From the NCBI GenBank assembly GCA_012026835.1, contig VEPN01000004.1:1-64000 (forward strand): 64,000 nt of DNA, in the 5' to 3' direction. Under the pieces are notes generated by a model, which saw only the letters and a list, made by a program, of their open reading frames with translations, made no database searches and had not been told where the DNA came from. Position 1 is the stretch's first letter, and every line of letters begins with the position of its first letter. Below, one piece after another: positions 220 to 7,200 of the stretch. The translations under genes were made by a program, and so were the position numbers. This stretch comes from Candidatus Methanoperedens sp. GTDB lineage: Archaea; Halobacteriota; Methanosarcinia; Methanosarcinales; Methanoperedenaceae.

Positions 220-786
220 ATGACAAAATCTGAAGAATCGAAAAAAACAATAAAGATCGAAAACGTTGTAGCATCAACCGGTATTGGAGCAAAACTTGAC
301 CTTAATGAGGTTATCCGTATCCTTGATGGTGCCGATTATAACAAGGAGCGCTTCCCCGGGGTTGTTTACAGGACAGCTTCCCCAAAAACGGCAGCGCTTA
401 TTTTCGGAAGCGGCAAGATCGTTTGCACAGGAGCAAAAAGCATCGAGGACGTGAGCAACGGGCTGACGAAGGTTTTTGAAAAACTGAAGGCTATAGGCAT
501 TGATATACCAAAGAAGCCTGAAATCACTATCCAGAACATTGTTGCCTCTGCCGATCTCGGAACAGTGCTAAACCTCAATGCAATAGCTATTGGTCTTGGG
601 CTTGAGAATATCGAATATGAGCCCGAGCAGTTCCCCGGGCTTGTATATCGTTTATCGAACCCAAAAGTCGTCATGCTGTTATTCGGGTCCGGGAAACTTG
701 TGGTAACCGGGGGAAAGAGACCCGAGGATGCCGAAGCTGCTGTTGAGAAAATCGTTGAGGAACTTGACGGGCTGGGGCTGCTTTAG
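220..786 (+). CDS. tbp: TATA-box-binding protein (TBP)
   Basis: This is the archaeal general transcription factor TBP, which binds the promoter TATA box and recruits TFB and RNA polymerase. The 188-residue protein has the usual two direct repeats, about residues 8-95 and 98-185. Each carries the saddle signatures: ERFPGVVYR and [10 protein letters not shown] in the first, EQFPGLVYR and [10 protein letters not shown] in the second. Length and acidic C-terminal part match archaeal TBPs. The gene stands alone, faces away from the left-edge gene and converges on phoU. A palindrome and repeated ATACCC half-sites upstream suggest specific regulation. Confidence 0.97.
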
Positions 787-2234: not shown

Positions 2235-3071
2235 CTACATTCCGTATTTTTTCTTTGTAAACAATCTCACGCCTATATTTAAAATCAGGATCAGGATGAT
2301 CAGGACAAGCGCGCCTCCCCATGCTTTGGCGTGCCAGTCGGGGAAGGGCGTTATCGCATAGGTATAGATCTGCACAGGAAGGGTGGATACGGGTTTGTCT
2401 ATCCCGCCTGCCCAGAACATATTGCCAAAGGAAGTGAAAAGGAGGGGGGCGGTCTCCCCCGAAATCCTTGCGATCGAAAGCAATGCGCCCGTGATTATGC
2501 CGCCCCTGGCGGTACTTATAATGATATACAGCGTTGTCTTCCATCCCGGTATGCCAAGAGCCAGGGAAGCCTCTCTAATGGAGCCCGGAACAAGTTTGAG
2601 TGATTCTTCAGTGGTTCTTGTCACTATGGGGACCATCAGCACCGACAGCGCCACCCCGCCAGCGATGGCTGAAAAGCTCCCGAAATAAAGGACGATGAAT
2701 GCGTAACCGAATATCCCGGCCACTATCGACGGGGTGCCGGCCAGGACATCGGCCACAAAACTTACGAACCGCCCGAACCTGTTATCCCCGTATTCAGAAA
2801 GATACACGCCTGAGAGAATGCCTGCGGGAAGCCCTATTATACAGGCTATCCCCACAACGATGAATGTCCCCTCTATAGCGTTCCCGAGCCCGCCCCCTGC
2901 TTCTCCTACTGGGCGGGGGAGCTTTGTTAGAAAATCGATATTTATGGAAGATAATCCGTTAACAGTAACTGTATAAAGTATGCTCAGGAGAGGAACTACA
3001 GCAATAACAACGCATGATGCCGCAAGGAAAGACATTATCCTGTCTGTTAATTTTCTTTTATTCCATCTCAT
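2235..3071 (-). CDS. pstA: Phosphate ABC transporter permease PstA
   Basis: PstA is the second membrane permease of the phosphate importer. The 278-residue protein has about six hydrophobic spans, starting at residues 12-35 and 75-95. It has a binding-protein-dependent transport loop around residues 165-185 ([14 protein letters not shown]) that should contact PstB. The start overlaps the end of pstC by 4 bases (ATGA), indicating translational coupling within the operon. Confidence 0.95.
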
Positions 3072-4030
3072 ACCCTGCCGCCTCCTTCCACTTTAAGGAG
3101 CCTCCATACAAGAACCCTGGCTATTATATTGATGATGACTGATATCAAGAGGAGCAAAAGTCCTATTTCAACCAGGGATGAGATGTAAAGATTTGACGTA
3201 GCCTCAACGAACTCGTTTGCAATGACAGACGCCATGGTGTACGAGGGTGAAAAAAGCGACTCCGAGATGCGCGGGCTGTTCCCGATCACCATGGTTACCG
3301 CCATCGTTTCACCGATGGCCCTGCCAAAGCCGAGAATCACTGCCCCGAATATTCCCGACCTTGCGTAGGGCAGCACCGCGATACGCGTTGTCTCCCAGCC
3401 TGTAGCGCCAAGGGCAAGAGCAGCTTCCCTCTGGTGAGTGGGCACTGTCATTATGACTTCCCTGGATATCGATGAGGTTATCGGGATAATCATTATTGCA
3501 AGTATCACGCCGCCTGTGAGCATGGACAGGCCGTACATCGGTCCCTGGAAAAGCGGCAGGAAACCCAGGTACGTTGAAAGAGGCGGCGCAAGGTAGTCAC
3601 GGATGAACGGGGCGAGGATGAATATGCCCCAGAGACCTATGATCACACTTGGAACGGCGGCGAGCAGTTCGATTGTGAAAGACAGGGGGTACTTGAGCTT
3701 TTCAGGAGCAAGTTCCGAGAGATATACCGCTATCCCGATGCTGAAAGGGACGGCTATGATAAGGGCAAGGAATGATGAAACAAGAGTCCCGAAGATAAAA
3801 GGAAGCGCGCCGAATACTTCATTCACAGGGTCCCAGGTCGATGTTGCAAGGAAACCCGTTCCAAAAGTATCCCTTGAAAGTGAAGACCCGACAAAAAGCT
3901 CACGGAACAATAAAAATGCAAGGACTATTATGCCAAGGGCAAAGAAGCCGACAACAACCTCAAAAATAAGATCGCCGGAGAGTTTACTCCGACCGATACG
4001 GGAAAAAGAAAATTTTGATGAATCCATCAT
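3068..4030 (-). CDS. pstC: Phosphate ABC transporter permease PstC
   Basis: PstC is the first permease of the phosphate importer. The 320-residue protein has six predicted spans, the first at about residues 24-46. The EAA-type cytoplasmic loop reads QREAALALGATGWETT. It overlaps pstS upstream and pstA downstream by 4 bases each. The EAA loop resembles that of PstA, as is usual for the PstC/PstA heterodimer. Confidence 0.95.
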   Translation of the reverse strand: MMDSSKFSFSRIGRSKLSGDLIFEVVVGFFALGIIVLAFLLFRELFVGSSLSRDTFGTGFLATSTWDPVNEVFGALPFIFGTLVSSFLALIIAVPFSIGIAVYLSELAPEKLKYPLSFTIELLAAVPSVIIGLWGIFILAPFIRDYLAPPLSTYLGFLPLFQGPMYGLSMLTGGVILAIMIIPITSSISREVIMTVPTHQREAALALGATGWETTRIAVLPYARSGIFGAVILGFGRAIGETMAVTMVIGNSPRISESLFSPSYTMASVIANEFVEATSNLYISSLVEIGLLLLLISVIINIIARVLVWRLLKVEGGGRV

Positions 4031-5151
4031 TTATCCTGAATGAGCGGTTGTCCGTTGTAGTTCATAAGTTTTATGGTTTTTTCATTAAGACTTATGACCT
4101 CAGCCGGCAGCGGCACGTACAGGAGGTCAGTGGAATATTTCTGGCCATCGTGCACCGCCCACCAGAGGAATTCAGCCAGTATTTTGCCTTTTGCCTGGTC
4201 TATCTGGTCTTTGTAAACAAGGAAATATGTAAAACTGCCTATGGGGTATGAATTGTCTCCCGGGGCATCCACGATACTCACCTGTGACCAGCTCGCATCG
4301 CCTGCTGGCAATGTCGGCACTGCTCCGGCAGCGGCGCTTGCAGTTGATTCAAGTGTGGGTTCTATGAATTTCCCTGCCTTGTTCCTGACATACGCATAGG
4401 AGATGTTCTGGAGTTTGGCATAGGCAAGCTCGATGTATCCTATTGCATAGGGATTCTGGCTTAATAAACCGGAAACTCCCTCGTTGCCTTTCCCGCCAAG
4501 ACCTGCAGGCCAGTTAACGGACTTACCTTTTCCAACCTTTGATTTCCAGTCAGGGCTGGCCGCTGAGAGATAATCCGTGAATACGAAGGTCGTGCCGCTC
4601 CCGTCGCTCCTGTGGGCAACGATAATTTCTTTTTCCGGGAACTGGATATCGGGGTTAAGTGAAACTATCCTGGGGTCGTTCCATTTTGTGATCTTCCCCA
4701 TGAAAATATCCGCGATCACGTCGCCGCTCAGCTTTACTCCGCTCTGTACCCCCGGGAGGTTATAAGCCACGACTACCGCACCTATGGATTCGGGTATTTG
4801 CAGGATACTGGAAATGTTTGCATATTCCTGCTCAGTGAGGGGCGCATCGCTTGCGCCGAAATCCACAGTTCTTGCAGTTATCTGTTTTATTCCCGCGCCG
4901 CTTCCCACGCTCTGGTAATTGATCTGGACATTCGGCTTCATCTTGTTATATTCCGAACTCCATTTGGATATGAGGGGATATGGGAATGTTGCTCCTGCAC
5001 CGTTTAAGGTCACGGTTTCAGGGGCTTTCGTGGGCTGCACGGCTGGCACTATTGGCTGTGCCGTTGTCTGTACTTCGGTAGGCTTGATTACGCATCCGGC
5101 TAACAGCACGCCTGCCAGAATCAAAATTAGTATTAATTTTAAGCGATTCAT
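4027..5151 (-). CDS. pstS: Phosphate-binding lipoprotein PstS
   Basis: PstS is the extracellular phosphate-binding protein that feeds PstCA. The 374-residue precursor begins with a lipoprotein signal ending in the lipobox LLAGC (Cys near residue 20), so it is probably membrane anchored by lipid. Phosphate-contact motifs are visible: GAGATFPYPL near residue 52, SDGSGTTFVFTDYL near 180 and GKGNEGVSG near 215. GGTGAT lies 9 bases before the ATG and fits the archaeal Shine-Dalgarno consensus. It is the first gene of the operon, downstream of a TATA box and the conserved 32-bp element at 5204-5235. Confidence 0.97.
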   Translation of the reverse strand: MNRLKLILILILAGVLLAGCVIKPTEVQTTAQPIVPAVQPTKAPETVTLNGAGATFPYPLISKWSSEYNKMKPNVQINYQSVGSGAGIKQITARTVDFGASDAPLTEQEYANISSILQIPESIGAVVVAYNLPGVQSGVKLSGDVIADIFMGKITKWNDPRIVSLNPDIQFPEKEIIVAHRSDGSGTTFVFTDYLSAASPDWKSKVGKGKSVNWPAGLGGKGNEGVSGLLSQNPYAIGYIELAYAKLQNISYAYVRNKAGKFIEPTLESTASAAAGAVPTLPAGDASWSQVSIVDAPGDNSYPIGSFTYFLVYKDQIDQAKGKILAEFLWWAVHDGQKYSTDLLYVPLPAEVISLNEKTIKLMNYNGQPLIQDK

Positions 5152-5183: not shown

Positions 5184-5235
5184 GAATAATATATAGCTTC
5201 TCCCAAGAATCTATATAGACTATAGAAAATCAGTA
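5184..5235 (-). promoter_or_regulatory. pstS promoter with shared 32-bp element (copy A)
   Basis: On the minus strand a TATA-like sequence (CTATATATTATT, about 5185-5196) precedes the pstS ATG. Directly upstream of it, 5204-5235 carries a 32-bp element also found at 6224-6255 and 6972-7003. Conserved positions on the minus strand begin TACTGATTTT and end TATAGATTCTTG. Its position just upstream of TATA suggests an activator or TFB-contact site. All three copies precede genes expected to respond to phosphate. Confidence 0.6.
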
Positions 5236-5297
5236 AATTATGATTCAAGAGATATCCGGAGATGAGAGATATCTGATGATGTAAAATTCAAACCTCA

Positions 5298-6185
5298 TTA
5301 AACGCATGCGATAGTCGGTTCAATAGAATACGTTATTGCAGGGGGCGCGAAACCGGACCTTAAACTGCAAAACTCCCTGATTTGCGCCAGGCTTTCAAGT
5401 GTACATTCTGTTGTTGAGTTTTTTATTTCCAGTATCAAATTCCTTGTGCCGGTCTTTAATATGTTTTTGAATACTTCCCTGAAGTTTATTTTCCCAAATC
5501 CCAGGGGAAGGTGGCGATCCCCAAACATCGCTTCTTCGGATTCCAGAATACCAAAATTGTCATGAAGATGCATCTGGCGTATGTACCCGCCTAATTCAAA
5601 ATAATCTTCCAGGGAAAACCCATAAGCATTGGAGGCGATAAAAGCGTGACCAATATCCAGATTTATCTTTAAATGGTCAGAACCCACCATTTCAATTATA
5701 TGGAATATTTCTCCGGGGAACACACCAACTTTATTTGCTCCAGCCCTGTCAAACAGGTTCTCTAAAAGCAGGGTGACGCCATAATCTTTGGCAAGGTCAC
5801 ATGTACGAATCAGGTTAAGTATATTCGAACTAAGGCATTTTCGTCCCCCATTCTGGCTGCCCGGATGAACAACTATGTATTCTGCGTTTATTTCTGCGGC
5901 GATCCTGATGACTTTTTCCATAACAGTAACATTTTTTTCATAATTACTTGAAAAATCCACCTTTATTCCCTCTATCCTTGAATCAATATGTGGGGCATGA
6001 ATAGTGAATCCAACGCCAAAACATGAGGCAAGATAGGCGGCTTTTGACAATAGTTCTTTCTCTATTTTTTCGTCCAGAAAATCCAGCCTGTCAAGACCAA
6101 GTTCAATGATTTCAACTTCACAGGGATCAATTGCTCCTCCAAAATCCTTGATCTGGGGAGAGTTTATGCCTGTTTTTGTATTCAT
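5298..6185 (-). CDS. Sugar phosphate isomerase/epimerase-like TIM-barrel protein
   Basis: The 295-residue product resembles the xylose isomerase-like/AP endonuclease 2 TIM-barrel superfamily. Recognisable stretches are FTIHAPHI (about 82), EYIVVHPGSQNGG (about 123), LLLENL (about 160), INLDIGHAFI (about 200), MHLHDNFG (about 233) and LILEIKNS (about 272). These supply the His, Glu and Asp metal ligands typical of the fold. The substrate cannot be told. A copy of the 32-bp pst promoter element lies upstream, so it probably belongs to the phosphate response. No clear Shine-Dalgarno site is present; a TATA box about 25-35 bases upstream suggests a leaderless mRNA. Confidence 0.75.
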   Translation of the reverse strand: MNTKTGINSPQIKDFGGAIDPCEVEIIELGLDRLDFLDEKIEKELLSKAAYLASCFGVGFTIHAPHIDSRIEGIKVDFSSNYEKNVTVMEKVIRIAAEINAEYIVVHPGSQNGGRKCLSSNILNLIRTCDLAKDYGVTLLLENLFDRAGANKVGVFPGEIFHIIEMVGSDHLKINLDIGHAFIASNAYGFSLEDYFELGGYIRQMHLHDNFGILESEEAMFGDRHLPLGFGKINFREVFKNILKTGTRNLILEIKNSTTECTLESLAQIREFCSLRSGFAPPAITYSIEPTIACV

Positions 6186-6207
6186 ATATTATAGCCTGAT
6201 GCCAAAT

Positions 6208-6255
6208 GTCATATATTTTATCTCAATAATCTATATACATTAATGAAAATCAATA
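6208..6255 (-). promoter_or_regulatory. Promoter with shared 32-bp element (copy B)
   Basis: The element at 6224-6255 overlaps the last codons of psiE. On the minus strand it starts TATTGATTTT and ends TATAGATTATTG, matching copies A and C at most positions and with no gaps. An AAAATATATGA TATA-like box follows toward the isomerase start at 6185. Overlap with the psiE stop implies the isomerase has its own promoter. Confidence 0.55.
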
Positions 6256-6659
6256 GGATTTTCCGGTGAGTACCTGACAGCCAGAACCCTTATCACCCCA
6301 AGCACCAGCAGCAATGCCGAGAGAGCGAAAATCGTTTCAAACCCGAATGACCTGGAATAAAGCCCGACCGTGACCTCACGCATGGCTATTAAAATCGTGA
6401 CATCGGTTATGTCAGTGAGCTTGATCCTTTCGTGTCTGGAATAGTCTGTAAAGGTCTTGAAGAACTCTATCACGATAAAAAGCGTGAGAACATTGGTGAC
6501 TATTTTATTAAATCCACCCTCCATAGAATCTATTGCAATAAACGGGATGTCCAGTAAAATCCGCAGCATCCCTGCGATAAGCACAAGCAGCAGTACATAC
6601 AGGACTATGGTAACAATAGAGCCGGTAACTTTTTTGAAAAATTTTGTATGGTCTATCAC
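6240..6659 (-). CDS. psiE: Phosphate-starvation-inducible PsiE family membrane protein
   Basis: The 139-residue protein has four hydrophobic segments, at about residues 14-36, 54-75, 88-103 and 107-128. It carries the PsiE family pattern with FKTFTDYSRHERI between spans two and three, and ILIAMREVTVGLYSR after it. PsiE is known as a phosphate-starvation-inducible protein of unknown biochemical role. The GTG start at 6659 overlaps the stop of the 31-residue gene upstream (GTGA), showing translational coupling. Its transcription unit is headed by copy C of the 32-bp element, consistent with phosphate control. Confidence 0.85.
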   Translation of the reverse strand: MIDHTKFFKKVTGSIVTIVLYVLLLVLIAGMLRILLDIPFIAIDSMEGGFNKIVTNVLTLFIVIEFFKTFTDYSRHERIKLTDITDVTILIAMREVTVGLYSRSFGFETIFALSALLLVLGVIRVLAVRYSPENPIDFH

Positions 6660-6751
6660 CTGAACACCATCCAGAATGCAATTAAAAAAAGCAAAACTAT
6701 CAGGAAAATTTCTATTTTGTCAGTGCTTTGCATTTTCTCTCTGCCACTCAT
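6656..6751 (-). CDS. 31-residue single-span membrane protein
   Basis: A small frame reads MSGREKMQSTDKIEIF followed by one hydrophobic helix, and ends in FR. AGGAT precedes the ATG by 4 bases. Its TGA overlaps the GTG start of psiE by 4 bases, a coupling typical of real operon genes. It is below the size that automated callers usually keep. Function is unknown; it could be a small partner of PsiE in the membrane. Confidence 0.6.
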   Translation of the reverse strand: MSGREKMQSTDKIEIFLIVLLFLIAFWMVFR

Positions 6752-6797
6752 TTTATCCTGATGTAACCAGTTTGGTTGTTGATGCAAGCCGTATTTC

Positions 6798-6923
6798 CTA
6801 TTTGGCGTCAAATCCGCCGCGCAGGAACAGATACAGCTCTCTATCTTCCCCGCTCATGTCCTGAGACTCCTCTTTGAAGGAGTAATCCTGTATGCCTGAT
6901 AATATTTTTTTTATTTTCTCCAT
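6798..6923 (-). CDS. 41-residue soluble small protein, first gene of psiE unit
   Basis: The frame encodes a charged 41-residue protein starting MEKIKKILSGIQDYSF and ending YLFLRGGFDAK. GGTGATC, a full match to the archaeal Shine-Dalgarno consensus, sits 4 bases before the ATG. A TATA box and copy C of the 32-bp element lie upstream at 6950-7003. It is followed by the 31-residue membrane protein and psiE on the same strand. No family is recognised. The strong translation signal and promoter make it a credible gene. Confidence 0.65.
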   Translation of the reverse strand: MEKIKKILSGIQDYSFKEESQDMSGEDRELYLFLRGGFDAK

Positions 6924-6949
6924 TTCGATCACCAAACCAGAATTCCACC

Positions 6950-7003
6950 CATGAATATATATATTTTATCACAATAATCTCTATATACTATAAAATATCA
7001 GTA
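6950..7003 (-). promoter_or_regulatory. Promoter with shared 32-bp element (copy C)
   Basis: The element at 6972-7003 reads on the minus strand from TACTGATATT to AGAGATTATTG. A TATA box (GATAAAATATATATA, about 6956-6970) follows, then the 41-residue gene. Spacing from the element to the start codon is 48 bases here, 52 for pstS and 38 for the isomerase. This is the most TATA-rich of the three copies. Confidence 0.58.
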
Positions 7004-7200
7004 GTTCTATAATCTTTTCCGTGGTTAGAGTGCAACATTATCTATCTCTTCAAGGCAAACGCATGTTCATTCCAGTTTCTTTTGCTTTTTATATTCATTT
7101 TCTTCAAGGTGAAGCTTGAGCCGCGGTTAATTATATATGTGCCAAGGTCAGACCTAATCAGGATAATCTAAGCTGCTCTGCAAAGGCCTGGAGAAATCAG

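Follow-up and report, generated by a model that had tools for sequence, protein, structure and literature searches.

A family-restricted promoter element as the probable operator of an AbrB-PhoU phosphate regulon in Methanoperedenaceae

A conserved promoter element marks most of the recognisable phosphate-scavenging promoters of Candidatus Methanoperedens, together with the gene of a likely phosphate-sensing regulator, and for this reason it is probably the switch of the phosphate-starvation response in these archaea. Our preferred reading, to which we assign a probability of about 0.65, is that it represents the operator of a one-component phosphate regulon, wherein a SpoVT/AbrB-PhoU protein (AbrB-PhoU) would bind the element, activate transcription when phosphate is short and control its own gene. 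The comparisons presented below provide good support for a phosphate regulon in Methanoperedenaceae and point to AbrB-PhoU as the likely protein binding the element; we infer activation rather than repression and a response to phosphate. The first three copies of the element lie in a 64,000-nt stretch of DNA from one Methanoperedens genome (the window), for which an earlier note had proposed a phosphate regulon, an interpretation supported by the wider searches.

The element in the window and its genome

The earlier note had placed three gap-free 32-bp copies at 5204-5235, 6224-6255 and 6972-7003, directed towards minus-strand genes and each with a TATA box just behind it. We recovered all three at these positions and in this direction, and found that a BRE-like hexamer and a TATA box abut each copy in a fixed register. 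The 32-bp matches are indeed present, but the conserved unit is longer, extending to 40 bp. With the sequence-only profile R1, its minus-strand copies score 47.4 bits at 5198-5237 upstream of pstS (repeat family D1), 32.4 bits at 6218-6257 upstream of a TIM-barrel gene and 41.2 bits at 6966-7005 upstream of a small-protein/psiE unit. The corresponding TATA boxes, placed by sequence and by the register of the aligned sites (positions 42-47), are at 5190-5195, 6210-6215 and 6958-6963 on the same strand, and the start codons follow the end of the element after 46 nt (pstS), 32 nt (TIM-barrel gene) and about 30 nt (small ORF). The window copies constitute a single 46-nt repeat family with 76-80% identity, and the pattern is matched three times in the window as against zero times in 100 dinucleotide shuffles. 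A position weight matrix, whose training set partly comprises these same copies, gives them 57, 50 and 35 bits, with the next best of approximately 128,000 window positions at -2.6; there are no further such sites in the window.

Alignment of 117 sites yields the conserved unit TnTACTGATTTTATATAGTATATATAGATTmTTGGGAnAA (positions 0-39), followed by Rn and then TATATA, with the TATA box in exact register in 106 of 116 distinct sites. The GANAAR at positions 35-40 looks like a BRE; given this fit, the specific part would span approximately positions 0-34, close to the extent marked earlier, with the consensus TnTACTGATTTTATATAGTATATATAGATTmTTGG followed by GATAAA-n-TATATA as BRE and TATA box. Segments of the element include TACTGAT and AGATTNTTGG. 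In purely descriptive terms, GATT occurs twice (positions 6-9 and 26-29), at a distance of 20 bp that corresponds to about two helical turns, with a loose dyad, TATAG-TAT-nTATAG, in the interval.

The genes behind these copies had been given as pstSCAB-phoU, an isomerase-like gene and a unit ending in psiE. This assignment holds, but a clear phosphate annotation is available at only two of the three promoters. The first operon comprises, all on the minus strand, pstS for the phosphate-binding protein (4027-5151; TIGR00975, 405.7 bits against a cut-off of 205), pstC-like and pstA-like permease genes (3068-4030 and 2235-3071, recognised by ORF and operon order), the ATPase gene pstB (1462-2220; 81-89% identity within the genus and 61-72% in other genera) and the Pst-linked phoU (809-1462; PF01895, 162 bits). 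The second promoter serves the TIM-barrel protein of the xylose-isomerase-like superfamily (5298-6185, minus strand; PF01261, 111.8 bits), for which an NCBIfam search reached no cut-off. The third unit, also on the minus strand, does end in psiE (6240-6659; PF06146, 44.3 bits, cut-off 23.9) but begins with an unannotated gene for a 45-aa protein ending ELYLFLRGGFDAK (6798-6935), followed by a possible 31-aa membrane peptide (6656-6751), seen only as an ORF starting at an internal ATG of ORF 6656-6811.

Several further observations concern this locus. The 45-aa protein belongs to a family of 41-50 aa lacking a Pfam match and ending (D/E)LYLF(L/M)RGGFxAK, which recurs behind the element at 26 sites in relatives. 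Small ORFs of Methanosarcinaceae (ELYxFMxGGxxAK) resemble it; these weak matches are mostly found beside class-V aminotransferase and YcaO/TfuA-like genes rather than phosphate genes, and were set aside. PstS (4027-5151, minus strand) is 76-87% identical to its counterparts in named Methanoperedens relatives, while the relatives returned outside the genus come from Hydrothermarchaeota, Thaumarchaeota and bacteria such as Myxococcales, and a search of the order's other genera found no PstS match at E 1e-40; together these hint at horizontal acquisition. A TBP gene (220-786, plus strand) is convergent to phoU; since it is not near pst in the loci searched in relatives, we discarded the idea of a dedicated TBP for phosphate genes.

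We then extended the search to the complete genome of 3.3 Mb. A 16-base core pattern allowing two mismatches produced 181 matches as against 137 for its reversed control, so such short cores are uninformative; the flanks of the best core matches nonetheless exposed a fourth full copy. The full pattern, drawn after this fourth copy had been seen, has exactly four matches and its control zero. Profile R1, built from 42 sites with the TATA box excluded, returned sites at 47.4, 43.7, 41.2, 32.4 and 20.4 bits, with the next at 14.1 and lower. The five sites above noise precede pstSCAB-phoU, the TIM-barrel gene, the small-protein/psiE unit, an AbrB-PhoU gene and, weakly, the alkaline phosphatase gene phoA. 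The fourth copy is located 33 nt before the class I AbrB-PhoU gene (contig C64, 34276-35268), whose 331-aa product carries an AbrB/MazE-type domain at its N terminus as well as two PhoU domains, whereas the fifth site (20.4 bits) has a spacer 2 bp longer and is directly upstream of phoA. These most telling members, the candidate regulator gene and phoA, both lie outside the window, with copies also on contigs C64 and C39.

Had the motif stood before random genes, or been the ordinary TATA/BRE sequence of most promoters, the earlier proposal would have fallen. Neither was observed: the five best sites are those just listed, the scores drop from 32 to 20 (phoA) before reaching noise, and a profile devoid of the TATA box finds these five sites alone rather than many unrelated promoters. 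In the manner of a pho-box, the element is common to several phosphate promoters (four of the five sites: pst, phoA, the psiE unit and AbrB-PhoU) and rare elsewhere in the genome. Because both the weight matrix and the profile were derived from sites of this family, the scores they give to those sites are not independent evidence; greater independence attaches to the pattern search in genomes not seen before and to the discoveries of AbrB-PhoU and of the genome's own phoA. Separately, phoA-type promoters (this genome's phoA, L139 around 1500-1630, and L074, L077 and L081) combine a variant element with a leader before an AGGAGG site, in which a hairpin GCAAAATC/GATTTTGC is possible; in genomes G005 and G022 an unrelated small gene is preceded by the same combination of promoter and leader.

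Distribution and target genes across the family

Of the Candidatus Methanoperedens genomes searched, all 31 contain the element, as do two of three genomes from the other genera of the family (two of a sister genus); most of these are draft metagenome assemblies, and the regions around sites were taken irrespective of gene content. The sister genus retains it at pstS and beside AbrB-PhoU, with Pit too in one genome. In the rest of the order Methanosarcinales only scattered weak matches of at most 23.8 bits are seen, and in Methanosarcinaceae it was not found above noise. Similarly, a phylum-wide sample of 394 genomes yielded matches only in members of Methanoperedenaceae, and the IMG/VR viral contigs hold no exact copies.

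The scan of related genomes with the motif led back to the same few genes, which account for about 94% of the 117 sites. This, along with the restriction to one family, shows that the element is neither ordinary TATA/BRE sequence nor placed at random genes. The counts per gene, which overlap because some sites serve two genes, are 29 for divergent AbrB-PhoU, 28 for pstS, 26 for the small protein before psiE, 14 for forward AbrB-PhoU, 13 for the TIM barrel, four for DUF47-Pit, two for PHA synthase operons and, for phoA, one in a relative in addition to the one in the window's own genome. The class III PHA synthase operons belong to two genomes (G005, L083 site 6535; G013, L098 site 6226), and their PhaC proteins match TIGR01836 above its cut-off, suggesting phosphate-controlled carbon storage in these two organisms. 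By our count about seven sites are unexplained, one of which (L079 site 9712, G001) precedes a gene for an S-layer-domain protein (PF07752). Variant sites with no ORF behind them were considered as small RNA promoters; this was rejected, as their conserved neighbour is the divergent class II AbrB-PhoU gene.

Outside the family, the full matrix gave only negative scores, with few low p values, on the upstream regions of pst and AbrB-PhoU genes. By eye, the pst promoters of other families of the order (L237, L239, L242, L246) display stretches rich in CTATA, with TTATTnGGATAA-like and TATA sequences behind them, none of which is significant with the Methanoperedens matrix; we regard these CTATA-rich dyads as a lead.

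AbrB-PhoU as the candidate regulator

AbrB-PhoU is encoded in every genome that has the element, and in most of them the element adjoins its gene. The proteins fall into two classes, with about 80% (class I) and about 30% (class II) identity to the protein of the window's genome. In class I the element faces forward, towards the gene, and mostly 33-43 nt separate it from the start codon. Class II genes are divergent, and 28 of their 29 starts lie 11-16 nt from the element, a distance that places its central TATATA as their TATA box. An N-terminal AbrB/MazE-type domain followed by two PhoU domains was detected in all 12 aligned members at E 0.01. For the protein of this genome the AbrB match is below the Pfam cut-off (19.1 versus 24.7 bits), whereas class II passes. 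Its predicted structure is confident in the PhoU-like half, with 4q25, 1t8b and 1t72 as best matches, and of low confidence in the N-terminal AbrB half, which may be expected of an intertwined dimer modelled as a monomer.

The genome encodes only two PhoU-domain proteins, the Pst-linked PhoU and AbrB-PhoU, and the latter is the only one with a DNA-binding-type domain. A search of the same genome for the PhoB-type winged helix (PF00486) gave 0 matches, the control being positive in 10 bacteria (10 of 14 genomes), which excludes a bacterial PhoB-type Pho system. In other families, AbrB-PhoU adjoins pst operons or sits inside them; this supports a role in phosphate metabolism but not a tie to this particular element, and as other families of the order have AbrB-PhoU without the element the link is not reciprocal.

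Accordingly, the following mechanism may be envisaged, of which the earlier steps have good support and the later ones weaker support. The element would be the operator of the Methanoperedenaceae phosphate regulon, bound by the AbrB domain of AbrB-PhoU, while the PhoU domain would sense phosphate status, either by contacting Pst/PhoU or by way of a ligand that it binds. When phosphate is short, AbrB-PhoU might then settle directly upstream of the BRE, where archaeal activators often bind, and help TBP/TFB onto the promoter. The genes switched on in this way could be those for uptake (pst, pit) and phosphatase (phoA), the psiE unit and, in some species, those for PHA storage. Where an AbrB-PhoU gene is divergent, its TATA box lies within the element, so that by binding there the regulator would also reduce its own synthesis. 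Counting against this mechanism are the two AbrB-PhoU classes, only about 30% identical, which accompany one and the same element, and the TIM-barrel gene, for which no phosphate role is known.

Competing readings, known systems and significance

The same regulon and element could instead be governed by a repressor that blocks TFB/TBP when phosphate is abundant and dissociates upon starvation, a somewhat unlikely reading that nevertheless draws on several features: the 40-bp block extends into the BRE to within 2 bp of the TATA box, the element covers the TATA box of the divergent class II genes, and AbrB-type proteins are often repressors. Yet its specific part stops just upstream of the BRE, leaving the TATA box and start region of the forward genes uncovered, and the fixed register would be characteristic of factors in contact with the core machinery. 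Rather unlikely, too, is a true phosphate regulon operated by another, unlinked transcription factor, with AbrB-PhoU merely one of the regulated genes. That the elements differ little even though two divergent AbrB-PhoU classes replace each other, and that other families have AbrB-PhoU without the element, would fit such a factor; the lack of a PhoB-type protein, the status of AbrB-PhoU as the sole PhoU protein with a DNA-binding-type domain, and the presence of the element beside its genes in most genomes argue for AbrB-PhoU itself.

We consider it improbable that the element answers a broader stress or growth signal, such as general nutrient limitation: the PHA synthase operons, the S-layer-domain gene and the TIM-barrel gene of unknown role are among its targets, but the commonest are pst, the psiE unit, Pit, phoA and PhoU-domain proteins. 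That the copies are simply AT-rich promoter sequence of the ordinary kind, or promoter DNA duplicated not long ago, with no dedicated factor, merits next to no credence and is refuted by the genome-wide and genus-wide scans. Although the region is AT-rich and three of the genome's five copies lie within 2 kb, others are on contigs C64 and C39, the remaining promoters of the genome give no match, and across more than 30 genomes the positions of the block are nearly invariant while those outside it are not.

Phosphate-starvation responses are known in several archaea; to our knowledge, the operators and regulators behind them are hardly defined outside the haloarchaea. The Pho-boxes in the pst promoters of Halobacterium salinarum are described as needed for induction on phosphate starvation and are attributed to PhoU regulators (PMC6560208, citing Furtwaengler et al. 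2010). Judged against that secondary account, the Methanoperedens element is likewise an archaeal promoter element at pst operons, but differs in being tied in anaerobic methanotrophs to a whole regulon that includes phoA, the psiE unit, Pit and regulator genes. In Methanosarcina mazei, of the same order, phosphate starvation raises phoA and pstSCAB-phoU, grouping them in one response (the PHO stimulon), but that study defined no operator or regulator (PMC6864096). The bacterial Pho regulon (PhoR/PhoB, Pho box) overlaps in its targets pst, phoU, phoA and psiE, whereas the Methanoperedens genome has no PhoB-type domain and uses a different element of about 35 bp beside an archaeal BRE/TATA. With the archaeal SpoVT/AbrB-PhoU fusions of the literature, the candidate shares the domain order, AbrB then PhoU, and the link to pst loci in other families; what sets it apart is a conserved operator tied to its genes. 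A literature search covering few subscription papers found no Methanoperedens phosphate regulon, no expression study of Methanoperedens at limiting phosphate and no AbrB-PhoU target sites.

In these anaerobic methane oxidisers, which are difficult to cultivate, the analysis delimits a precise probable operator, lists its targets in more than 30 genomes and names one candidate for the regulator. We hold it to be evenly balanced whether the whole Methanoperedens phosphate response relies on one-component AbrB-PhoU without PhoR/PhoB, a protein whose control would then extend to uptake, the phosphatase, the uncharacterised small protein, the regulator's own gene and, in some species, PHA storage. 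Judging by the PHA link, phosphate supply may steer the storage of methane carbon in some species; if the one-component reading is true, phosphate shortage would be coupled to the storage of methane-derived carbon.
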